The notes under the pieces were generated by a model that was given only the letters and a program-made list of their open reading frames with translations, searched no databases and had not been told where the DNA came from. This document shows, in pieces, positions 49,863 through 64,000 of a DNA stretch of 64,000 bases. Made by a program: the position numbers and the translations under genes. The first letter of the stretch is position 1. Each line of letters starts with the position of its first letter. The DNA comes from Bradyrhizobium sp. B124 (GTDB lineage Bacteria > Pseudomonadota > Alphaproteobacteria > Rhizobiales > Xanthobacteraceae). The DNA is taken from positions 4,402,001 to 4,466,000 of the forward strand of contig NZ_CP152413.1 of the NCBI RefSeq assembly GCF_038967635.1, given 5' to 3'.

Positions 49863-50429
49863 TTACCTCTGATAGATCTTGAGCGTTGTGATCATTTGCT
49901 TGAGTTCGGCGACATATTTGTCGGCATAGTCCTTGTGCACCGACAGAGTGACGAGGATACCGAGCTCTGATGTGTTGGTGGCGAGATAGTAGGTGTCGAA
50001 ATTGGGTAGTTCCGAACCGGAATGCAGCGCCTCGACCCATTGGTGCGAACCAATCGTCGTGCGTCCGACAGAGCGGACGTCGGACAGCTTGCCGGTCGCT
50101 TCGTCTCCGATCCTTTGCCGCTGCTTCAGGTGGTCCTCGTAGGCCTGCAGATTGTCCTGCGAATTGCGCTCCTTCATCGCGATGATCGCGATGGCCGCAT
50201 GGGGAGGCTTGCCGGGCGGCGAGCAGACAAATTCACTGTCGTCCTGTTCGCACCACCAGCCGCGCGCCAGTTCCATGTCAAACGCCGCGGCTCGGAACAC
50301 GTCTCGCGGCGGCGCGACCAGGATACGCGACGCTGAATATCCGGCGCCGCCGAGCACGGCCGCGCTCACGACAAACGATGCCAGCGTTGCGGTCACAAGG
50401 CGCGCGCTGCCGGAGATGTCCACCCTCAA
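49863..50429 (-). CDS. membrane-anchored protein of unknown function, TIR partner
   Basis: The 188-residue protein has one N-terminal hydrophobic segment (LVTATLASFVVSAAVLGGAG, residues ~11-30), so it is anchored in the membrane or exported. The rest is polar, with FDMELARGWWCEQDDSEFVC, SPPGKPPHAAIAIIAMKERN, GSHQWVEALHSGSELPNFDT and KDYADKYVAELKQMITTLKI. I recognise no family. Its start overlaps the stop of the TIR gene by four bases (ATGA at 50426-50429), so the two are made together. The length and charge suggest a periplasmic partner. Confidence 0.75.
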   Translation of the reverse strand: MRVDISGSARLVTATLASFVVSAAVLGGAGYSASRILVAPPRDVFRAAAFDMELARGWWCEQDDSEFVCSPPGKPPHAAIAIIAMKERNSQDNLQAYEDHLKQRQRIGDEATGKLSDVRSVGRTTIGSHQWVEALHSGSELPNFDTYYLATNTSELGILVTLSVHKDYADKYVAELKQMITTLKIYQR

Positions 50430-52021
50430 TTCTCCTGCTGTTCGATCCAGCGCTTGAGATCGGCGGCGAGCCGCTTGAGGCCAGCCCCCGCATCGGAAGC
50501 TGCGATCGCGTCGACGCTGCTGAGGGCCCCCTGTTTGGCCTCCGCGGCAGCAGCGGCGTTTCCGCGCTTGCGCTCGATCATGAGCGTGTATGCCTGGGCG
50601 ATAGCCACCTCATATGCGACGGATACATCGGCGGGCTTGCCGTCATCGGATGAGCCGGCACCGACAGCAAGCTTGAACTGCTCGGCCGCGAGATCCGGCC
50701 GATCAAGCGTGACATATTGCTGACCCGCCAGCCGGAACAGGCGCACCCGCCATGCGACGACCTGATCGTCTTCGGTGCGTCCGTCGGACCTGCGGGCGTC
50801 GAGCAAGCGCTTCAGCGCGTCGGCACCAGCGGAATAGCTGTCGGCCGCCTCCTGGTGGCGATTTGCGGCAGCGTGCAGGTCGCCGGTCTGGCCCTGCGCC
50901 TCGGCCTCGAACCGGACAATTTGCGCGCGCCCATCATGCTCCTTGCCGAGCCGCCGGGCGTCCTCGAGCAGATCGGCATATGCGTGGCTGGCGCCATCCA
51001 TATCTTTCTGTCGCATCAGGTACTCGGCATAGGCCTGGCGTGCCTGCAGGAGAGCCAATGCCGCATCAACGCGCGCGCGGCTCTGATGACTCAGCGCCGC
51101 GCGTTCAATGGCGTCGCTGAATTCCTTGCGCGCCTCCTTGTCTTCGTGCAGTGCCTCGCGGCGGGCTCCGCGCTCGAGCCGGCAGGTTACAACCCCGTTG
51201 ATCGGGGGATCGTTCGTCGTCCCTTGATCCGCCTTGTCGAGCAGATCGCAACCGCGGCCGATGATGAGCCGGCGTGTCCGCGAAGTGGAAGCATCACCGG
51301 CGCTCAGATTGACCGCCTCCTCAACCATGCTGGATGCCGCGAACATGCTGTCGTCGTTGGCACGGATCGCCTTGTGCTGGTTGATCAAGGCGACCACGCT
51401 GAGACTGCCCACCGCGAGCAGCGTTCCAAGCGTCGCGCCCGCGACGGCGCCCAACTGCGTCTGCTGCCGCTTCTCCTCTTCCTGCCGGAGCCGGGGCATC
51501 TCGTCGGGCGGGATGTTGAACAGGGGCGCGACGATCTTCAGCTTTTCCGCGCTCAGGCGGACGACCCGCGAAAAGCTCAGGAACCAGAAGCGTCCCGCGC
51601 CTCTCAAATCGACGATCTCGATATTCGGGAACGTTTCCTTCAAGCCGCCGGGCAGCGGTCCGTCGAAATCGCCTGCGCCTCTGGCGACGATGACGTTGCC
51701 GGCTCCGGGGCCGGTGGCGAAATCCCGGATCTCGCGCTCGATCCAGTCCTCGACACCTCCCGGGCGCCGCATCGCGTTCGGCGTCGCGACGACAATGAGG
51801 TATCGCGAGGACAGCAGCGCCGGCCTGATGCTTTGCTGGTAGAAGTCGCTGGTGCCCCGCTCATAGGCCGAATCGAGATAGACGCGCAGCTTCCGGCCAT
51901 AGACGTCGCGCAGCGCGGCAGGAAGACGAAAGCCGACAAGCGCGCGTCTCAGCCACCGTGCAACGGCAATCCCGTCGGACCGGCGGTAGGAAATGAATGC
52001 GTCATAATTGAACTCAGGCAT
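50426..52021 (-). CDS. TIR-domain membrane protein with TPR-like region
   Basis: The 531-residue product begins MPEFNYDAFISYRRSDGIAV, the box 1 of a TIR domain (~1-160). YERGTSDFYQQSIRPALLSS, RYLIVVATPNAM and the helix EDWIEREIRDFA follow. In that helix a Glu sits at the position of the NADase catalytic Glu in active TIRs. A membrane helix comes at ~195-215 (GAVAGATLGTLLAVGSLSVV). The C-terminal half is helical and repetitive (e.g. ALLQARQAYAEYLMRQKDMD, AAEQFKLAVG), like TPRs, probably on the periplasmic side. It may sense a signal outside and act inside. It overlaps the small partner gene by four bases. Confidence 0.87.
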   Translation of the reverse strand: MPEFNYDAFISYRRSDGIAVARWLRRALVGFRLPAALRDVYGRKLRVYLDSAYERGTSDFYQQSIRPALLSSRYLIVVATPNAMRRPGGVEDWIEREIRDFATGPGAGNVIVARGAGDFDGPLPGGLKETFPNIEIVDLRGAGRFWFLSFSRVVRLSAEKLKIVAPLFNIPPDEMPRLRQEEEKRQQTQLGAVAGATLGTLLAVGSLSVVALINQHKAIRANDDSMFAASSMVEEAVNLSAGDASTSRTRRLIIGRGCDLLDKADQGTTNDPPINGVVTCRLERGARREALHEDKEARKEFSDAIERAALSHQSRARVDAALALLQARQAYAEYLMRQKDMDGASHAYADLLEDARRLGKEHDGRAQIVRFEAEAQGQTGDLHAAANRHQEAADSYSAGADALKRLLDARRSDGRTEDDQVVAWRVRLFRLAGQQYVTLDRPDLAAEQFKLAVGAGSSDDGKPADVSVAYEVAIAQAYTLMIERKRGNAAAAAEAKQGALSSVDAIAASDAGAGLKRLAADLKRWIEQQEN

Positions 52022-53966: not shown

Positions 53967-56900
53967 TCACGCATGCTGTGGCTGCGCCAGCTGGCTGACC
54001 TGCGTCGCCGGCGGATCGACAACCAGGGTCCCGCCATGGCCGTCACTCGAGGTCGCGAAGGTCGAGGCCATGTAGTTGCCCAGCAGCATGATACTCGCCG
54101 TGACGGTGCCGTCCGTCACCGTGAGCGTGCCGCTCGCACTGGTTCCGCTGAAGGTCGGCGTGTGAACGCTCGCAAAATTGATGTTCGCGAAATCGATCGC
54201 ATCCGAACCCGTCATCCCGGCGACGGTTCCGCTAAAGCTCGCGGAATTGTCGAGCTTCAGCGTCCCCGTCGACCCCTGGAACGTCACGCCGGCATTCGAC
54301 CCCCCGGTCAATTCCAAGGTGCCGCCCGGCACGATGTTGGCGCTGCTCGGGCTCTCTCCCGTCACATTGAACGACTGCCAGGCCCCCCACGCGGTGCCGT
54401 CATTCGCCCGGATCCAGAGTTGGTCGGTGCCCGAGCCGGCCTGATAGGTCGCCTGGGAAAGCTGTGCCGCAGTGACGTCGATCTCGGTATTCGCTTGCTG
54501 GTTCACTCCGTTGATGTTCCAGCGCCCGTTGGTGTTGGAATCCCACAGCGCATATTTCGTGATGGCATCGCCGTCGGCGTCCGTCGCCGTGACGAGGTTC
54601 GCGGCAGCAAAGGTCTGCCCCGAGACCGTCACAACGTTGGCGACCGAGACCGTCGGTGCCTGGTTGGTTGCGGTGGCCGTGAACGACTTCCACGTACTCC
54701 ACTCGCTGCCGTCATTGGCCCGCACGAAGAGCGTATCCGACGGCGAGCCGCCGGGGCCGTACACGTAGCTGACCTGTGAGAGATTCGCCGCCGAGACATC
54801 GATCTCGGCGCTGGCCGCCTGGGCGACGCCATTCACCACCCAGTGGCCATTTCCACCGGTGTCCCAGAACGCATACTGGGTGATCGGATCGCTCTCGGCA
54901 TCCGAGGTCGAGAACAGGGTCGAGGCCGCCACCGAATGGCCGTGAATGCCACTGACGTTCGATGCCGTCACGACCGGAGCCGTGTCGGGGCCCGGCGTTG
55001 CCGTGAATGCGGTCCAGGCGCCCCACTCGCTGCCGTCATTGGCCCGCACATAGAGCGTATCGGGCGTCGAGTTGCCGGGGCCGAACACGTAGCTCACCTG
55101 CGAGAGGTTCGCCGCGGCAACATCGATTTCGGCGTTGGCCGCCTGGGCGACACCATTCACCACCCAGTGGCCATTGCCGCCGGTGTCCCAGAACGCGTAC
55201 TGGGTGATCGGATCGCTCTCGGCATCCGAGGTCGAGAACAGACTCGAGGCGAGAGTCGACGTCTCACCGTGGACCGCGGCCACGTTCGCCGCCGTCACGA
55301 CCGGAGCCGTGTCGGGGCCCGGTGTTGCCGTGAATGCGGTCCAGGTGCTCCACTTCGATCCGTCGTTCGCCCGCACATAGAGCGTGTCGGGCGTCGAGTT
55401 GCCGGGACCGAACACGTAGCTGACCTGCGACAGGTTCGCCGCGGACACGTCGATCTCGACGTTTGCCGCCTGGGCGACACCATTCACCACCCAGTGACCA
55501 TTGCCGCCGGTGTCCCAGAATCCGTACTGGGTGATCGGATCGCTCTCGGCATCCGAGGTCGAGAACAGGCTCGAGGCGAGAGTCGACGCCTCGCCGTGAA
55601 CCGCGGCCACGTTCGCTGCCGTAACGACCGGAGCAGTATCGTCCCCCGGCGTTGCCGTGAACGCTGCCCAGCTGCTCCACTTCGATCCGTCATTCGCCCG
55701 CACGTAGAGCGTATCGGGCGTCGAGCCGCCCGGTCCGAACACGTAGCTGACCTGCGAAAGATTGGCCGCGGCAACATCGATCTCGACGTTTGCCGCCTGG
55801 GCGACGCCATTCACCACCCAGTGGCCATTGCCGCCGGTGTCCCAGAACGCAAACTGGGTCATCGGATCGCTCTCGGCATCCGAGGTCGAGAACAGGCTCG
55901 AGGCGAGAGCCGACGTCTGCCCATGGGCCGCTTTCACGTTCGCCGCAGTCACGGTCGGGGCAGTATCGACCCCCGGCCCTGCCGTGAACGATGTCCAGGT
56001 ACTCCACAGGCTGCCGTCGTTTGCCCGCACGAAAAGCGTATCAGCCGTCGAGCCGCCCGGACCGAACACGTAGCTGACCTGCGACAGGTTCGCCGCGGCA
56101 ACATCGATCTCGGTGTTGGCCGCCTGGGCGACACCATTCACCACCCAGTGGCCACTTCCGCCGGTGTCCCAGAACGCATACTGGGTCATCGGATCGCTCT
56201 CGGCATCCGAGGTCGAGAACAGGCTCGACGCAAGAGCCGACGTCTGCCCATGGGCGGCGGTCACGTTCGCGGCCGTAACAACCGGAGCAGTATCGACCCC
56301 CGGTGTTGCCGTGAACGACTTCCAGGCCCCCCACAGGCTGCCATCGTTGGCCCGCACGTAAAGCGTATCGGGCATCGAGCCGCCGGGCCCGAACACGTAG
56401 CTCACCTGCGACAGGTTCGCCGCGGCAACATCGATCTCGACGTTTGCCGCCTGGGCGACGCCATTCACCACCCAGTGGCCATTGCCGCCGGTGTCCCAGA
56501 ACGCGTACTGGGTGATCGGATCGCTCTCGGCATCCGAGGTCGAGAACAGGCTCGACGCAAGCGCCGACGTCTGCCCATGGGCGGCCGTCACGTTCGCGGC
56601 CGTAACGACCGGAGCGGTATCGATCCCCGGTGTTGCCGTGAACGACTTCCAGGCCCCCCACAGGCTGCCGTCATTCGCCCGCACGTAGAGCGTATCGGCC
56701 ATCGAGCCGCCGGGGCCGAATACGTAGCTCACCTGCGACAGGTTCGCCGCGGCAACATCGATCTCGACGTTGGCTGCCTGCGCGACACCATTCACCACCC
56801 AATGGCCATTTCCACCGGTGTCCCAGAACGCATACTGGGTGATCGGATCGCTCTCGGCATCCGAGGTCGAGAACAGGCTCGACGCGAGAGCCGACGTCTG

Positions 56901-59900
56901 CCCATGGGCGGCCGTCACGTTCGCGGCCGTAACGACCGGAGCGGTATCGACCCCCGGTGTTGCCGTGAACGACTGCCAGGCTCCCCACAACGTTCCGTCG
57001 TTCGCCTTGATGAACAGCGTATCGGGGGCTGACCCTGTCGGCCCGAACACGTAGCTCACCTGCGACAGGTTCGCCGCCGGAACATCGATCTCGACGTTGG
57101 CTGCCTGGGCGACACCATTCACCACCCAGTGGCCGCTTCCGCCGGTGTCCCAGAACGCGTACTGGGTCATCGTGTCGGGATCCGGATCGCTCACCGTGAA
57201 CAGGCTGGATGCGGCAATCGACGTCTGGCCGTGCGCCGCAGTGACGTTGGCTGCGTTCACGGTTGGCGCGGTGTCGACAAACGCCTTTGCGGTAAACTGG
57301 GTCCAGCCGCTCCAAGCCGTGCCGTCATTGGCTCGTACGAAGAGGGTATCAGTCGAACCGCTCGGACCGAACACGTAGCTCATCTGCGACAGGTTCGCCG
57401 CCCCAATATCGATCTCGGCGTTGGTCGCCTGCGCGACGCCGTTGAGGACCCAGTGTCCGTTACCTTGGGTGTCCCAGAACGCGTATTGGGTGATGGGATC
57501 GCCATCGGCGTCCGTGACCGAGAACAGGCTGGAAGCGAGCGCAGAGCTCTCGCCAAAGATTGCCGTTACATTGGGCGCTGACGTGACCGGTGCGACGTCG
57601 GCACGCGTCGTGACCAGCGTGCCGGTGCCGCCATCGGTGCCGACGCTGAACCGGACGCCAGGGGTTTGATTAAGCTGCAGATCAAAGGAGGAAGCCCCCT
57701 CGGTGACATGCAGGATGTTGCCCGCGAGCAAGGACGCCGATCCGCCGGACACGAAATTGAGGCCAGCCAAATCGATGCTGTCGCCCAGCACCAGACCGCT
57801 GATGGTGGTGCCGGCCAAAGATGTGCCATCGACCTTGAGCTGCCCGCCGGAACCGCTGAATGCGATGCCGCTCGCGAGGCTTCCCGCCTGCAATTCGACC
57901 ACGCCGCCGGAGATCGTCACCACCCCTGCGGAGCCGCCGGACGATACAATCTCACTACCACCAGCGAGCACGAAGACGTTGCTCGTCGTCGTGCCTGCAA
58001 GATTAAGCGCGCCACCACTCGACACCGCAATGTCGTGCGCCGTGCCTCCGGCGGCAATGTTGAACACGCCGCCACTGGAAACGGTCAGGTGATCCAGCGC
58101 GCCGCCCGAAAGGACGTTGACCGTGCCGCCGGAGACGGCGGTCCCGGAGCCCACGGCGCCGTTGACAACACCACCTGAGAAGACGTTCTCAACACCACCG
58201 GCATAAACGCCCACGCGGCTGAGCACGGTGCCCGACACATTGAATGTGCCGCCGCTGGAGACGCCGACGAAAGCCGCCGAGCCGCCGGCCAGCACGTTCA
58301 ATACGCCGCCTGCGCTGACGCCGGTGCCTGAACTGACGGCTCCGGTGATCAGTCCACCGGACAGCACGTTCTCGACACCGCCGCTCGTGACGCTGGCATT
58401 GCTCAGCACGGTGCCGGCAACATTGAAGATGCCGCCGCTCGACACGCCGACAAAGGCGGCCGTGGCGCCGGCCGACAGGTTCAACGTACCGCCCGAAATT
58501 CCAGTCCCGGATCCGCTCGCGCCGGAGATCGATCCTCCGGACAGGACATTCTCTACGCCGCCGGCGTAGACACCGGTATTGCTCAGTACCTTGCCTGCGA
58601 CATTGAAGATGCCGCCGCTCGACACACCGACGTGCACAGCCGAACCACCGGCCAGGACGTTCACGACGCCGCCGGCGGAAATGATGGTCGCCGCACTCGA
58701 TGCGCCGGAGATGAGCCCGCCGGACAGCACGTTCTCGGTACCGCCGCTCGAGACCAGCGTGTTGCTGATGATTGTACCTGCAACATTCAGGGTGCCGCTC
58801 GACACCGTAAGGTCATGTGCCGTGCCACCAGCCGAGACATTCAGAGTGCCGCTCGAAACTGTCAGATGATCCAGCGCACCGCCCGAAAGGACGTTGACGG
58901 TACCACCGGACACGCCCGTCCCGGAGCCCGGGACACCGGTGACAACACCACCCGAGAGAACATTCTCAACGCCGCCGTCAATGACGGCCGTGTTGCTGGT
59001 GATGGTGCCTGCAACATTCATGGTGCCGCCACTCGACACCGCAATGTTGTGCGCCGTGCCGCCAGCGGAGACATTCAGCGTGCCGCTCGACACCGTCAGG
59101 TGATCCAGCGCGCCGCCCGAAAGGACATTGACGGTACCGCCGGAGATGCCGGTCCCGGAACCGGTCACGCCGGTGACAACACCACCCGAGAGAACGTTTT
59201 CAACGCCGCCGTCATAGACAGCGACATTGCTGAGTACGGTGCCCGACACGTTGAACGTGCCGCCGCTCGAAACACCGACATAGGCCGCCGAGCCACCGGC
59301 CAGAACGTTCAGCGTACCGATAACCCCGGTCCCCGAGCTGATGGCGCCGGTGATCAGACCGCCGGACTGCACGTTCTCGACGCCGCCGGCAAACACCATG
59401 CCGTTGCTGAGCACGGTGCCCGCGACATTGAACGTGCCGCCGCTCGACACGCCTACAAAGACCGCTGAGCCCCCGGCCAGAAGGTTCAATGTGCCGCCAG
59501 CAATGCCGGTCCCTGAGCCGCTGGCTCCGCTGATCAGTCCGCCGGACAACACGGTCTCGACACCGCCCGCCAGGACGCCTGTATTGCTGGTGAGGGTGCC
59601 ACCCACGCTGAGCACGCCGCCGCTCGAGACAGTGATGTGGTCGGCGGTGGCGCCGGCTTCGACGATGACCCGCCCGGAATCGCCAACACTCGTCGCCGAG
59701 CCGCCGGCGAGAATGTCGAGCAGACCGCCGCCCGAAACTTGCACGCCCGACGCGAGGCCACCCGACGAAACGGTCTCAACGCCGCCGCTGAGCACGAATT
59801 GATTGGTGACGATGCCGCTGTCGTTCAGCGCACCGCTGGCATAGACGAACATCGCCGTCGCGGTAGCGCCCGACTGCACGTTCACCGTGCCGCCGGAGAT

Positions 59901-60842
59901 CGCGGTGCCAAAGCCTCCGGACACACCCTGCACCACGCCGCCCGACAGCACGTTCTCGACGCCGCCGCTAAACACCCCGACCGTGCTCAGCACTGTGCCG
60001 GCGACATTGAAGACACCGCCGCTCGACACCCCAATGTTATATACCGTACCGCCAGCGGAGACATTCAGCGCGCCGCTCGAAACCGTCAGGTGATTCAGTG
60101 CACCACCTGCTAGGACGTTCACGATACCGCCGGATACGCCGGTCCCGGAGCCGGTCACGCCGGTGACGACACCACCGGAGAACACGTTCTCAACACCGCC
60201 GTCGTAGACCGCCACATTGCTGAGCACGGTGCCCGACACGTTGAACGTGCCGCCGCTCGAAACACCAACGAACGCCGCCGAGCCACCGGCCAAAACGTTC
60301 AGTATGCCGCCGGCGGAAACGCCAGTGCCTGAGCTGACCGCCCCCGAAATGAGACCGCCCGACAGTACGTTTTCGACACCGCCGCTACGGACCCCAATCA
60401 TGCTGAGCGTCGTGCCGGCGACGTTGAAGACGCCACCGCTCGAAACCGACAGGAATGAAGCCGAGCCGCCCGCCAGCACATTGACGGTGCCGCCGGAAAT
60501 GCCGGTGCCCGAGCCGATGGCTCCGGAGATGAACCCGCCGGCCTCGATGTTCTCGACGCCGCCGGTGAACACCGCGGTGAAGCTGTTGACGGTCCCCGCC
60601 ACGTTGAGCGTGCCGCCACTCGAGACGGCGAAGCGATCGGCCCCGCCGCCCGCGCTGACGACGGCACTGCCGCCGCTTGAAATCGTGGTCCCTACCGCGT
60701 AGCCGCCGGCGTCGACCAGGAGCTGGCCGCCACTCAGCGTCGTCGAGACTGCCGAGCCCCCGCTGAGGACCTCGAGCGTATTGCCTCCCGTTTCGATTAG
60801 TCCTGAGCTGGTAATACCCGAGCCTACAGACGTCGTGCTCAT
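53967..60842 (-). CDS. giant strand-loop-strand repeat protein, probable type I secretion substrate
   Basis: The 2291-residue product starts MSTTSVGSGITSSGLIETGG, with no signal peptide. Residues ~1-995 are AIDA-type strand-loop-strand repeats, about thirteen super-units of GGVENVLSGG..GSGTGISGG..VNVLAGGSA..VGVSSGGTFNVAGTVLS. Residues ~996-1081 form a small module (GGQLKVDGTSLAG... LGDSIDLAGLNF). Ten tandem 109-residue repeats follow (1086-~2165), each with TQYAFWDTGGNGHWVVNGVA and TLYVRANDGS. The C-terminus (~2166-2291) repeats the first module (GSTGTLKLDNSASFSG... GSDAIDFANINF) and ends DPPATQVSQLAQPQHA. There is no autotransporter barrel and no Ca-binding GGxGxD run that I can see. By neighbourhood (heptosyltransferase, HlyD) it is a glycosylated T1SS-exported adhesin. 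Almost free of Cys, as expected for such proteins. Confidence 0.9.
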   Translation of the reverse strand: MSTTSVGSGITSSGLIETGGNTLEVLSGGSAVSTTLSGGQLLVDAGGYAVGTTISSGGSAVVSAGGGADRFAVSSGGTLNVAGTVNSFTAVFTGGVENIEAGGFISGAIGSGTGISGGTVNVLAGGSASFLSVSSGGVFNVAGTTLSMIGVRSGGVENVLSGGLISGAVSSGTGVSAGGILNVLAGGSAAFVGVSSGGTFNVSGTVLSNVAVYDGGVENVFSGGVVTGVTGSGTGVSGGIVNVLAGGALNHLTVSSGALNVSAGGTVYNIGVSSGGVFNVAGTVLSTVGVFSGGVENVLSGGVVQGVSGGFGTAISGGTVNVQSGATATAMFVYASGALNDSGIVTNQFVLSGGVETVSSGGLASGVQVSGGGLLDILAGGSATSVGDSGRVIVEAGATADHITVSSGGVLSVGGTLTSNTGVLAGGVETVLSGGLISGASGSGTGIAGGTLNLLAGGSAVFVGVSSGGTFNVAGTVLSNGMVFAGGVENVQSGGLITGAISSGTGVIGTLNVLAGGSAAYVGVSSGGTFNVSGTVLSNVAVYDGGVENVLSGGVVTGVTGSGTGISGGTVNVLSGGALDHLTVSSGTLNVSAGGTAHNIAVSSGGTMNVAGTITSNTAVIDGGVENVLSGGVVTGVPGSGTGVSGGTVNVLSGGALDHLTVSSGTLNVSAGGTAHDLTVSSGTLNVAGTIISNTLVSSGGTENVLSGGLISGASSAATIISAGGVVNVLAGGSAVHVGVSSGGIFNVAGKVLSNTGVYAGGVENVLSGGSISGASGSGTGISGGTLNLSAGATAAFVGVSSGGIFNVAGTVLSNASVTSGGVENVLSGGLITGAVSSGTGVSAGGVLNVLAGGSAAFVGVSSGGTFNVSGTVLSRVGVYAGGVENVFSGGVVNGAVGSGTAVSGGTVNVLSGGALDHLTVSSGGVFNIAAGGTAHDIAVSSGGALNLAGTTTSNVFVLAGGSEIVSSGGSAGVVTISGGVVELQAGSLASGIAFSGSGGQLKVDGTSLAGTTISGLVLGDSIDLAGLNFVSGGSASLLAGNILHVTEGASSFDLQLNQTPGVRFSVGTDGGTGTLVTTRADVAPVTSAPNVTAIFGESSALASSLFSVTDADGDPITQYAFWDTQGNGHWVLNGVAQATNAEIDIGAANLSQMSYVFGPSGSTDTLFVRANDGTAWSGWTQFTAKAFVDTAPTVNAANVTAAHGQTSIAASSLFTVSDPDPDTMTQYAFWDTGGSGHWVVNGVAQAANVEIDVPAANLSQVSYVFGPTGSAPDTLFIKANDGTLWGAWQSFTATPGVDTAPVVTAANVTAAHGQTSALASSLFSTSDAESDPITQYAFWDTGGNGHWVVNGVAQAANVEIDVAAANLSQVSYVFGPGGSMADTLYVRANDGSLWGAWKSFTATPGIDTAPVVTAANVTAAHGQTSALASSLFSTSDAESDPITQYAFWDTGGNGHWVVNGVAQAANVEIDVAAANLSQVSYVFGPGGSMPDTLYVRANDGSLWGAWKSFTATPGVDTAPVVTAANVTAAHGQTSALASSLFSTSDAESDPMTQYAFWDTGGSGHWVVNGVAQAANTEIDVAAANLSQVSYVFGPGGSTADTLFVRANDGSLWSTWTSFTAGPGVDTAPTVTAANVKAAHGQTSALASSLFSTSDAESDPMTQFAFWDTGGNGHWVVNGVAQAANVEIDVAAANLSQVSYVFGPGGSTPDTLYVRANDGSKWSSWAAFTATPGDDTAPVVTAANVAAVHGEASTLASSLFSTSDAESDPITQYGFWDTGGNGHWVVNGVAQAANVEIDVSAANLSQVSYVFGPGNSTPDTLYVRANDGSKWSTWTAFTATPGPDTAPVVTAANVAAVHGETSTLASSLFSTSDAESDPITQYAFWDTGGNGHWVVNGVAQAANAEIDVAAANLSQVSYVFGPGNSTPDTLYVRANDGSEWGAWTAFTATPGPDTAPVVTASNVSGIHGHSVAASTLFSTSDAESDPITQYAFWDTGGNGHWVVNGVAQAASAEIDVSAANLSQVSYVYGPGGSPSDTLFVRANDGSEWSTWKSFTATATNQAPTVSVANVVTVSGQTFAAANLVTATDADGDAITKYALWDSNTNGRWNINGVNQQANTEIDVTAAQLSQATYQAGSGTDQLWIRANDGTAWGAWQSFNVTGESPSSANIVPGGTLELTGGSNAGVTFQGSTGTLKLDNSASFSGTVAGMTGSDAIDFANINFASVHTPTFSGTSASGTLTVTDGTVTASIMLLGNYMASTFATSSDGHGGTLVVDPPATQVSQLAQPQHA
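54352..57587 (-). repeat. ten tandem 327-base repeats inside the giant gene
   Basis: Each unit encodes 109 residues, from VVTAANVTAAHGQTSALASS to SFTATPGVDTAP. Units 3 to 8 are nearly identical at the nucleotide level; for example the block CCAGAACGCATACTGGGT recurs every 327 bases. Outer units 1, 2, 9 and 10 are more diverged. This is typical of repeat expansion by recombination in surface proteins. The fold resembles cadherin/Ig-like VCBS-type modules with acidic loops (SDAESDP), which may bind calcium. Confidence 0.92.
57860..60800 (-). repeat. strand-loop-strand (AIDA-type) repeat region
   Basis: About 2.9 kb encodes Gly/Ser/Val/Asn-rich short repeats with the core (V/L)xVSSGGxxNVxAGGxAxxxxV, expected to stack as a beta-solenoid. 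Blocks such as GGTGCCGCCACTCGA and CCGCCGGACAGCACGTTCTC recur many times. Repeats of this kind carry heptose on Ser in AIDA-I and TibA. Confidence 0.9.
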
Positions 60843-60851
60843 GGCAGCGTG

Positions 60852-60867
60852 CCCCCCAAAAAAAAAA
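60852..60867 (-). repeat. C6/A10 homopolymer just upstream of the giant gene start
   Basis: On the plus strand CCCCCC (60852-60857) is followed by ten A (60858-60867); the giant-gene mRNA therefore has U10 then G6, 10-25 bases before its ATG. It lies in the 45-base gap between the heptosyltransferase stop and the giant gene. The G run overlaps the expected ribosome-site position. Confidence 0.85.
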
Positions 60868-60887
60868 TGGTCAGTTCTTGAAATAGG

Positions 60888-62198
60888 CTAGAGCTTGAAT
60901 CCAGGAATCGTCCTGATCACCGACTTCACATGGTCCACGGTGATCAGCCTTGTGCACTCGAACTGACGCGGCGTCCCCTTGTGGCGAGGGCACCAGAAAA
61001 AATCCTTGTGGTCGAATCGAACCGCCGGATCGTTCCAGCAGCTGTTGCAGGCGTGATAGTTGATCACGCGGTAGGGCGTAGCAAATTCATTTGTCGGATG
61101 CGTGAAGCCCGCGATCATGACGACCGGGGTGCCGACCGCCCAGGCCAGCCAGGCAAGTCCGCTGGAAAGGCCGATGAAAAAGTCCGCGTGGTTGAGCAGA
61201 TTCGCCCGCTCCTGAATCGGGCGGTCACCGGTCCAGTCCTCCGCGCCGTTCGGAATGTGATTCCATACCAGCTCGTGGCCGTGCGTCGGCTTCTGATCGA
61301 TGCAGATCACGCGATAGCCGGCCTGCTTGAGAAAGCTGGTCAGTTCGCGCCAGCCGTTCGGGTTGTTCCAGTACTTGCATTGCGTGGTGCTCTGGACCGC
61401 GATGCAAACGTAGGGCTCGGCGATGGGCCTTTGATCATCGGCCAGCGAGATGCGCGGCGCCACCTCGGTCGGATCGACGCCGAGGATGTATCCGGCAGTG
61501 CGGTGCAGTCCCACAAAGCGGAAGTCGCACGGCTGGTAGACGAAATTCTTGTCGTCGAAAAACAACCCGACGCTGTACGTCGCGTAATATCGGTCGGTTT
61601 GGATTTCCTCATGCGTGACGAAGTTGATCTCCGGATACGCATCGCGAAACAGCGGAATCAGCTTCTCCGCCATTGCGCAGGTCAGCTTGCAATTGTGAGC
61701 TTTCCTGAACTTCTCCACATAGGGAAACCAGCCGATCGTGTCGCCCAGGGTGCCGACCGGAAGCTGGATCAGGACGTGACGATCCGTCGCGTTGTACTCA
61801 TGCGAGAAGATGACATCCTCGCCCTGCAAGACCTCGATACGGAAACGAATGTAGTAGCGCTTTGAGCTGTTGACGCGTCCGCCCGCGAACTGCGTCTCGA
61901 ACAGGACATTCCCGGTCTCGGCGTCCCAAAGACGCACACGCCAAGGACCTTCGGCTTCGGGACAAACGACCCGGGCGCCGTCGTTGAAGTCGAATCGCAG
62001 TCCTTTGGGACCGACTTGCGTGGGCAGTTCAGCGGCCGCCGGATAGGCACGCTTGGGTGTTTCGGCATCCGGCGCAGCAGCGTCCGGCTTGGCAAGTACG
62101 GCACTGGTCGACCGATCAACGATGACTTTGGGTTGGTCGGCCACATGGTCAATCGGACGCTTCAGCCCGATCGCCGGCGCGACGGCAATCGCATTCAC
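60888..62198 (-). CDS. autotransporter-type O-heptosyltransferase
   Basis: The 436-residue product starts at GTG 62198, with an AGGGGAT ribosome site. After a ~55-residue disordered N-terminus come LRFDFNDGARVVCPEAEGPW and RVRLWDAETGNVLFETQFAG, then the GT-B core: LIQLPVGTLGDTIGWFPYVE, YVCIAVQSTTQCKYWNNPNG, FIGLSSGLAWLAWAVGTPVV and MIAGFTHPTNEFATPYRVIN. A CX2CX15CX11C cluster (CNSC ... WC ... EC) near the C-terminus matches the cysteine iron site of the Aah/TibC family. These enzymes add ADP-heptose to Ser of strand-loop-strand repeats. It lies 45 bases upstream of the giant repeat gene on the same strand. Confidence 0.92.
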   Translation of the reverse strand: MNAIAVAPAIGLKRPIDHVADQPKVIVDRSTSAVLAKPDAAAPDAETPKRAYPAAAELPTQVGPKGLRFDFNDGARVVCPEAEGPWRVRLWDAETGNVLFETQFAGGRVNSSKRYYIRFRIEVLQGEDVIFSHEYNATDRHVLIQLPVGTLGDTIGWFPYVEKFRKAHNCKLTCAMAEKLIPLFRDAYPEINFVTHEEIQTDRYYATYSVGLFFDDKNFVYQPCDFRFVGLHRTAGYILGVDPTEVAPRISLADDQRPIAEPYVCIAVQSTTQCKYWNNPNGWRELTSFLKQAGYRVICIDQKPTHGHELVWNHIPNGAEDWTGDRPIQERANLLNHADFFIGLSSGLAWLAWAVGTPVVMIAGFTHPTNEFATPYRVINYHACNSCWNDPAVRFDHKDFFWCPRHKGTPRQFECTRLITVDHVKSVIRTIPGFKL

Positions 62199-62345
62199 GA
62201 ATATCCCCTGCCCTAAAATATAAAGACCGCTAAAAATGCGGGCAGAAGGTAAGCGAGATTGACAACCGCGTCAACGGACGAAAACCTTAGCGAGTACCCC
62301 CTCTCGCGGCCGCTCCGGAACCGCAGAAACAAAGAAACACAAGCG

Positions 62346-63149
62346 ATGAGCCGCAATCCCAGCAAGGTCCCATTTGTGATCGCAGCGTCGGCGCATGGCC
62401 CGCTGATCGTCAACCGGCTGGACTACCACACCGCGGGCGACCATATCTTTGGCGTGGGGATTCAGATCCTCGAGCACGGCGCCTTCGACGTCACTGAAAT
62501 CGAACTTACGAAGGGTCTTCTTGCACTGCGAAGAACCTACCGAGGGGATGGCGTGGTGGCCATCGACTGCGGGGCGAACATCGGCGTTCACACCATCGAA
62601 TGGTCCAAGCAAATGGACGGCTGGGGTTCGGTCCTTGCCATCGAGGCGCAGGAGCGGGTCTACTACGCCCTTGCCGGCAACATCGCCATCAACAACTGCT
62701 TCAACGCGCGGGCGATGCACGCGGTTATTTCGTCGGAAACCGGCAAGACCTGGGTGCCGACCTTAAGCCATCAGGAACCCGCCAGCTTCGGAAGTCTGGA
62801 GGTGACGCAACGCCCCGGCACGGAGCAGATCGGCCAGAAGATCGATTATTCCGAGGCCAAAGGCTCTGAGACGACGATGATCACCCTGGACTCCCTGAAT
62901 CTGAGCCGCTGCGATCTGATCAAGATCGACGTCGAAGGGATGGAGTTGAAGGTGCTGGAAGGAGCCAGCGCCACGATCCGGCAGCATCACCCCGTCATTC
63001 ATGCGGAATTCATCAAGACCGACAAGGCCGCACTGGTTCGCAAGCTGAACGATCATGGATACCGGACCTACGACGCGGGGCAAAACTGCCTTGCGATCCA
63101 TGAATCCGACCCGACCCTGAGCCACGTGGAATCGCGAACCACGTCATGA
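62346..63149 (+). CDS. FkbM-family SAM-dependent methyltransferase
   Basis: From ATG 62346 (MSRNPSKVPFVIAASAHGPL) the product has 267 residues. Motif I is GDGVVAIDCGANIGVHTIEW; later FkbM signatures are VLAIEAQERVYYALAGNIAI, LSRCDLIKIDVEGMELKVLE and HPVIHAEF. Relatives methylate sugars in O-antigens and glycans. It is on the opposite strand to its neighbours, convergent with the HlyD gene (21 bases between stops) and divergent from the heptosyltransferase (147-base gap). An upstream TTG start (62259) is possible but adds no homology-like sequence. Confidence 0.9.
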   Translation: MSRNPSKVPFVIAASAHGPLIVNRLDYHTAGDHIFGVGIQILEHGAFDVTEIELTKGLLALRRTYRGDGVVAIDCGANIGVHTIEWSKQMDGWGSVLAIEAQERVYYALAGNIAINNCFNARAMHAVISSETGKTWVPTLSHQEPASFGSLEVTQRPGTEQIGQKIDYSEAKGSETTMITLDSLNLSRCDLIKIDVEGMELKVLEGASATIRQHHPVIHAEFIKTDKAALVRKLNDHGYRTYDAGQNCLAIHESDPTLSHVESRTTS

Positions 63150-63170
63150 CGGCCTGACCGCCGAATTCTT

Positions 63171-64000
63171 TCACCGCTCGCGGAGAGCATCCTGCCGGTA
63201 GCGCATGATCGGCGACAGCAAATAGCTCATGATGCTGCGGGCGCCCGTCCTGATTTGGACGGTTACGGTCATTCCCGGTGAAAGGTTGATCTCCTTGTCA
63301 TCGACGACCATCTTGGTCCGGTCGATCGAGACATGCGCGATATACACCGGCCCCTGCCCCTTTGGCTCGCTGCTTTCCTCCGGCGCTCCGCCATTGGGCT
63401 CGCGGGCTGGATCCCGCGCCTTGTCGCGGGAGACGGAATCGGGCGAGACGCTGACGATCTTGCCGTGCAGCAGGCCGTAGCGCGTGAAGTTGAAGGTATC
63501 GACCTTGATTTCGGCGTCCTGGCCGGGGTGCACGAAGCCGATATCGCGATTTGAAACCATCGCTTCGATTTCAAACAGATTGTCGCTGGGTACGACGACC
63601 GCGAGCGTCTGGGCGGCGGTTGCGACGCCGCCGACCGTGTGCACGGCCAGTTGCTGCACCACGCCATCGATGGGGGCGGCAAGTTTTTGAAGGCTGGTCC
63701 GGTGCTCAGCTTTGGACACTTCGTCCTTGAGGCTGCCAGCCTTCTGCGTCGCCTTGGCGAGATCATCGTACAGGCGGTGCCGGTATTCCGAGACAAGCTT
63801 GGCGCGCGTCTCTGCGAGCGCGGCGACGGCCGCGTTGGCCTCCTCGAGCTTGCTCCGTTGCACCAGGACGTCCTGCTGCATCCCGACGAGTTCCTGGAGC
63901 TCCTGCAAGTATTGCAGCTTTGAACCGTACTCCCTATCCGCCAGGTACTTGCGAACGCCGACCCGCTCCTGCAGGACCGGCAGTAGAGCTTCAATCTTGG
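63171..64000 (-). CDS. HlyD-family type I secretion adaptor, C-terminal part (cut by right edge)
   Basis: The frame is open from the right edge to TGA at 63171, showing 276 codons. The visible part begins in a long coiled coil (KIEALLPVLQERVGVRKYLA ... EEANAAVAALAETRAKLVSE), typical of the periplasmic hairpin. The lipoyl/barrel region follows: LAAPIDGVVQQLAVHTVGGV, ATAAQTLAVVVPSDNLFEIE and AMVSNRDIGFVHPGQDAEIK. It ends LSPGMTVTVQIRTGARSIMS and YLLSPIMRYRQDALRER, the usual HlyD C-terminus. Such adaptors link an ABC exporter to a TolC-like channel. The exporter gene is probably just beyond the edge. Confidence 0.93.
   Translation of the reverse strand, partial: KIEALLPVLQERVGVRKYLADREYGSKLQYLQELQELVGMQQDVLVQRSKLEEANAAVAALAETRAKLVSEYRHRLYDDLAKATQKAGSLKDEVSKAEHRTSLQKLAAPIDGVVQQLAVHTVGGVATAAQTLAVVVPSDNLFEIEAMVSNRDIGFVHPGQDAEIKVDTFNFTRYGLLHGKIVSVSPDSVSRDKARDPAREPNGGAPEESSEPKGQGPVYIAHVSIDRTKMVVDDKEINLSPGMTVTVQIRTGARSIMSYLLSPIMRYRQDALRER

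Follow-up and report, generated by a model that had tools for sequence, protein, structure and literature searches.

A TibC/Aah-type O-heptosyltransferase gene associated with a type I secretion locus in Bradyrhizobium sp. B124

The O-heptosyltransferases TibC and Aah of Escherichia coli are known together with TibA and AIDA-I, which are type V autotransporters carrying a signal peptide and a barrel. Their enzyme family (BAHT) takes its name from autotransporters, a name that public annotation transfers to loci of the kind described here. In the available part of one study, the targets of BAHT enzymes are described as "often" neighbouring autotransporters (PMC4358343). We report a locus at the right end of a 64,000-nucleotide stretch of Bradyrhizobium sp. 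B124 DNA (the window; single 9.17-Mb contig NZ_CP152413.1, positions 4,402,001 to 4,466,000), in which a TibC/Aah-type gene is followed by a gene for a 2291-residue protein and preceded by genes for a HlyD adaptor and a HlyB-type ABC exporter.

This locus is probably a type I secretion system equipped with a cytosolic O-heptosyltransferase of its own, in which the 2291-residue chain would be heptosylated and then exported in one step. The evidence consists of the genes and their order, the conservation of key residues, the absence of a barrel and of a Sec-like signal, and the recurrent linkage of such enzymes to exporters.

The heptosyltransferase and the 2291-residue protein

The genes lie on the minus strand and enter the window from its right end in the order exporter, HlyD, a gap, heptosyltransferase and 2291-residue protein (Table 1). 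The exporter and HlyD genes overlap by 17 bases, and only 45 bases separate the heptosyltransferase gene from that of the giant protein.

Judged by its sequence, the enzyme belongs fully to the TibC/Aah family. When aligned to TibC from the PDB, the catalytic Asp110 of TibC corresponds to Asp153, and the sugar-binding residues Thr226, Lys230, Arg286 and Trp305 correspond to Thr271, Lys275, Arg331 and Trp350. The four iron-finger cysteines (C384, C387, C403 and C415) match TibC Cys339, 342, 358 and 370 with the spacing CX2CX15CX11C, and TibC Phe368 is also retained. At the tip of the beta-hairpin thumb, F265 and V266 of TibC are replaced by L310 and V311, which is one substitution that keeps the tip hydrophobic. 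The position of TibC Pro300 is occupied by Ser345, matching Ser294 of AAH. According to the available text of PMC4358343, Pro300 sets the donor choice of TibC, whereas AAH with its Ser294 accepts both ADP-heptose forms. Heptosyl transfer and assembly into a dodecamer ring, probably an iron-containing one, are predicted.

The 2291-residue protein had been described in a first-pass annotation as a strand-loop-strand repeat protein, which is too simple for the entire chain. The repeats are indeed present (10 stretches matching TIGR04415), but they are confined to residues ~1-1010, after which come cadherin-like repeats and a C-terminal domain. There are 48 SGG motifs in the strand-loop-strand half versus one in the remainder; in 1000 shuffles of that half the mean was 8.8 and the maximum 19. 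The cadherin-like region is underlain by a DNA tandem array (54676-57539) with a period of 327 and 8.8 copies. The protein has no cysteine, and its calculated pI of 4.05 is the floor of the calculator. It contains no RTX nonapeptide (0 GGxGxD), a motif that is common but not universal in type I substrates.

The repeat half resembles the beta-helix passengers of AIDA/TibA-like type V autotransporters. Nevertheless, no Sec-like N-terminus was seen in the protein (top 15-residue mean hydropathy 1.06 in the first 75 residues) or in two paralogues, as assessed by hydropathy only and with no signal-peptide program, and no PF03797 barrel was found in it by profile search. The neighbour of the enzyme is in this respect not an autotransporter. 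Because the literature says only "often", however, the lack of a barrel in the target is compatible with membership of the enzyme in the BAHT family. Thus the first-pass annotation was right that a same-strand, upstream, autotransporter-type heptosyltransferase gene with the cysteine cluster and a nearby HlyD gene accompany a giant protein lacking both Sec signal peptide and C-terminal barrel.

Residues 2176-2291 form a separate domain, recognized by profile search, and the chain ends in ...QVSQLAQPQHA. Domain and tail are conserved (61/73 by pattern), with a tied structure match, and are a candidate secretion signal. No family could be named from the fold of the domain (best Foldseek E 4.4e-3; best E in a PDB sequence search 0.062). 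Short tails of the QPHA or PQHA type also end giant proteins with diverse architectures, including RTX proteins (P0136-P0254).

A second locus of this genome (L023, G000:C1:953214-966200) encodes the two paralogues, of 1997 and 1968 residues, with an identical-type C-terminal tail. They are preceded by two heptosyltransferase fragments (residues 1-34 and 335-419), of which intact relatives exist elsewhere, including the gene in the window. The window enzyme may serve all three giant proteins in trans.

Linkage of the enzyme family to type I exporters

The first-pass annotation proposed that an ABC exporter be sought to the right of position 64000, and a HlyB-type exporter is encoded there. Its N-terminus is C39-like (PF03412, 57.5 bits), with Asp-Ser at what we take to be the position of the peptidase cysteine; this domain is therefore probably non-cleaving. 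Two TolC-type outer-membrane proteins score over the TIGR01844 cut-off in the genome, both unlinked to the locus. The 2291-residue protein thus has the linked ABC exporter and HlyD that mark a type I substrate.

Matches to TIGR04414 over cut-off are patchy in distribution, occurring in 26/195 genomes of the genus Bradyrhizobium, 5/385 of a class sample and 8/398 of a phylum sample (this genome being counted each time). We examined 113 loci, namely the best 80 of 334 relatives and 33 fetched regions, with fragments, G049 and G897 left aside at fetching; 102 loci other than the present one remained after 11 duplicates were dropped. The 80 relatives were selected for resemblance to alphaproteobacterial sequences, and the proportions below therefore do not represent the family as a whole. 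Within the DNA examined, an ABC exporter together with HlyD is present in 33 of the 102 loci (24 HlyB-type, 9 PrtD-type) and a barrel in 17, of which 16 are assigned to Burkholderiales. No locus has both. The 52 loci with neither include 26 in which less than 7.5 kb was available on one side. When only the 63 loci with sufficient DNA on both sides are counted, 24 have an exporter, 13 a barrel and 26 neither.

The survey of Bradyrhizobium suggested in the first-pass annotation yielded the same gene set: within the DNA examined, exporter and HlyD accompany the enzyme in 26 of the 34 non-redundant loci other than this one (17 HlyB, 9 PrtD), the other eight are without the exporter, and none has a barrel. 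The chance expectation of HlyD lying no more than 10 kb from a gene picked at random is ~1.4%, a figure calculated from the six HlyD genes over cut-off in this one genome, with 10 kb taken on either side. The arrangement is not peculiar to this strain. It was also observed in Xanthobacteraceae, Reyranella, Enhydrobacter and a Rhodospirillales bacterium.

Among HlyB-type loci, the order is exporter-HlyD-enzyme in line in 14, HlyD-exporter divergent from the enzyme in nine and enzyme-exporter-HlyD in line in one (Rhodospirillales), whereas the nine PrtD-type loci have exporter-HlyD-enzyme in line with abutting frames. The existence of several gene orders argues against one frozen accident. Survey distances are between stop-to-stop frames, with start codons not assigned; by this measure, the gap between hlyD and heptosyltransferase gene spans 413-954 bases in 14 other loci with the same gene order.

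Several variants were noted. PrtD-type loci belong to photosynthetic-type Bradyrhizobium (BTAi1 and others; L084:5753-15837 and eight alike) and have a long HlyD; in the one such locus tested, the enzyme continues into a fused region that matches TPR weakly. In L045, L102 and other loci of Acetobacteraceae and Rhodospirillales, strand-loop-strand proteins ending in Hint_2 stand beside the heptosyltransferase, and a scan of 18 further C-termini gave Hint_2 in 6/18 and PF03797 in 0/18. The same enzyme with Hint proteins is noted for a polyketide cluster in the available part of PMC8776678. Two heptosyltransferase frames are present in each of L087, L092, L101 and L141.

Two quick, unrooted trees were made, the first including five long-branched rows and the second omitting them. 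In the second, all 34 exporter-linked rows, this one included, fall in one group of 55 (SH-aLRT 96); the other 21 rows are unlabelled, and none carries a barrel. Exporter and barrel are separated by one change if unlabelled rows are ignored, or 13 changes if these are treated as a third state. Because the trees are unrooted, they do not give the order of the secretion routes. The earlier proposal that a glycosylated passenger would travel by type I secretion is supported by the exporter and the recurrent gene set, but its suggestion that the system was "rewired" from type V to type I is unproven.

Table 1. Coordinates of locus features (window numbering, extended beyond the right end where needed)
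Feature	Position	Strand	Evidence
2291-aa protein, candidate heptosylated type I substrate (passenger)	53967..60842	-	TIGR04415 109.5 bits (cut-off 30)
Strand-loop-strand half, residues ~1-1010, candidate O-heptosylation region	57813..60842	-	
Cadherin-like repeats, residues ~1101-2150	54393..57542	-	PF16184 58.4 bits (cut-off 25.5); limits drawn by eye
C-terminal domain, residues 2176-2291, candidate type I secretion signal region	53970..54317	-	profile 189 bits
TibC/Aah-type O-heptosyltransferase, 436 aa, GTG start assumed	60888..62198	-	TIGR04414 654.7 bits (cut-off 200); PDB TibC 4rb4 E 7.8e-139; PF21129; PF01075
Iron-finger C384-X2-C387-X15-C403-X11-C415 of the heptosyltransferase	60954..61049	-	alignment to TibC
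Gap between hlyD and heptosyltransferase gene, 972 bp	62199..63170	-	
HlyD-family type I adaptor	63171..64000, on to window-equivalent 64583	-	TIGR01843 407 bits (cut-off 208.65)
HlyB-type ABC exporter	window-equivalent 64567-66708, beyond window end	-	TIGR01846 1024.5 bits (cut-off 725.55)

The gap between hlyD and the heptosyltransferase gene has no Rfam match at gathering score, and promoter and terminator scans of it gave no excess. Elsewhere in the window, a 531-residue protein (50426-52021, minus strand) matches a TIR profile below threshold (PF13676, 22 bits; cut-off 28).

Proposed order of events and alternatives

The 2291-residue protein would be synthesised without an N-terminal signal, and its strand-loop-strand half would fold in the cytosol, at least partly, as a TibA-like beta-helix. 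The TibC-like enzyme, probably an iron-containing ring, would add heptose to serines in the SGG turns. Since type I signals are C-terminal, export would start only after the whole chain had been made, leaving the enzyme an interval for glycosylation that an N-terminal Sec signal would not provide. The HlyB-type exporter, together with HlyD and an unlinked TolC, would then engage the C-terminal domain and tail and pass the chain across both membranes in one step, to become a surface or released adhesin.

ABC exporters are held to move unfolded chains, and a glycosylated helix would have to be undone for export. BAHT enzymes probably recognise folded or partly folded beta-helices, according to the available part of a 2021 review (PMC8151025). 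The C-terminal domain was not accepted as a pure secretion signal, as its core is internal in 35/119 other proteins and a weak copy sits within protein P0015 of this genome. A further-reaching reading, which we regard as unlikely, is that the alphaproteobacterial enzymes form a separate type I branch in which O-heptosylation is a built-in step before export, with the enzyme holding its substrate and handing it over as a glycosylating export chaperone. The chaperone would be the ring or, in photosynthetic Bradyrhizobium, the TPR-like fusion in line with a PrtD-type exporter.

Adjoining the exporter is a divergent gene (window-equivalent 67298-70300; L004:5298-8300) for a 1000-residue protein with HExxH at residue 135. 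This protein shares the cadherin-like repeats of the 2291-residue protein (51% identity) and is also free of cysteine, so the exporter might serve it and other substrates while the heptosyltransferase pair is a mere neighbour and the 2291-residue protein is retained or leaves otherwise. We consider this improbable. Relatives of the HExxH-protein N-terminus stand beside the exporter in only 12/24 other HlyB-type loci (some of the remaining 12 contigs, such as L037 and L052, end early), whereas exporter and heptosyltransferase occur together in 24/24 (this follows from how the class is defined), with three gene orders. The shared repeats argue rather that both proteins are substrates. The HExxH protein is likely a second client, and both may be clients of the exporter.

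It is slightly more improbable still that the 2291-residue protein does leave by type I export but is not heptosylated by this enzyme, either for want of donor or because the enzyme uses another sugar or target. GmhA was not found over cut-off in the genome with either model (TIGR00441, best 22 bits; PF13580, best 25.4 bits with a cut-off of 27), and two large neighbour proteins tested at PrtD-type loci have no TIGR04415 match, so the family may have other targets. However, HldE scores over cut-off, and adjoining frames, when inspected by eye, look like HldD and a LPS heptosyltransferase. The conserved catalytic and donor-binding residues, the AAH-like Ser345 and the proximity of the two genes likewise argue for heptosylation of the neighbour.

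Finally, eight PF03797 barrels score over cut-off in this genome, and an ordinary autotransporter with its barrel encoded elsewhere would be glycosylated as is already known. We give this explanation almost no credence, because all eight lie at least 400 kb from the locus and neither a barrel nor a signal peptide was found on the 2291-residue protein when looked for. A first profile, built from four barrels of this genome, recovered only its seeds; its replacement drew on 17 Burkholderiales barrels. These had been picked after their C-termini looked barrel-like, so that 17/17 PF03797 matches confirm the look and not the frequency of barrels. PF03797 was absent from a picked set of 15, comprising the 2291-residue protein and 14 others chosen for C-terminal similarity; among these 14, L042 and L114 have no exporter in the DNA examined. 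With filters on, the combined profile missed one known barrel (L139). With HMMER filters off, the profiles recovered the four barrels of this genome tested, an alphaproteobacterial positive control, yet both found barrels in 0/33 exporter-linked loci. The survey count stayed at 17, with weak matches in L082 (a cut fragment) and L140.

Relation to known systems

If export of a heptosylated chain by this locus is confirmed, the same glycosylation module would operate with two secretion routes that are unrelated to each other, and heptosylated beta-helix adhesins would be found among Alphaproteobacteria that live in soil or with plants. In its available part, the 2021 review asks whether a folded target is needed, what happens to the barrel while the passenger is glycosylated, and how release and unfolding for export take place (PMC8151025). 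This locus would make those questions testable, as there is no barrel or N-terminal signal to compete, and it is a clean system for asking how a glycosylated helix is undone for export. A type I link for BAHT heptosyltransferases was not found in the literature searched (open PMC papers, most of them judged by their listing; subscription papers mostly lay outside this scope).

In HlyC-type acylation, RTX toxins, which are type I substrates, are modified in the cytosol ahead of their export. There an acyl group is placed on lysine, whereas heptose on serine is proposed here. As in HlyB/HlyD export of RTX proteins, exporter and adaptor belong to the TIGR01846 and TIGR01843 subfamilies, and the substrate is acidic, giant, and without cysteine or N-terminal signal. 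Unlike those systems, the substrate lacks the RTX nonapeptide and the locus has a dedicated O-heptosyltransferase. The cyanobacterial RTX proteins SwmA and oscillin are described as glycosylated and offer a precedent within the type I class; unlike at the present locus, the available part of that source mentions neither a BAHT enzyme nor a strand-loop-strand repeat (PMC3034196).

With TibC/TibA and Aah/AIDA-I, the locus shares the enzyme family, catalytic and sugar-binding residues, iron-finger spacing, a beta-helix target with SGG turns and an enzyme gene beside that target. The enzyme differs from TibC in having Ser345 (as in AAH) instead of Pro and Leu310 in place of Phe265. The larger difference lies in the target: TibA and AIDA-I bring their own signal peptide and barrel, whereas the 2291-residue protein has neither and would instead depend on the exporter encoded beside it.
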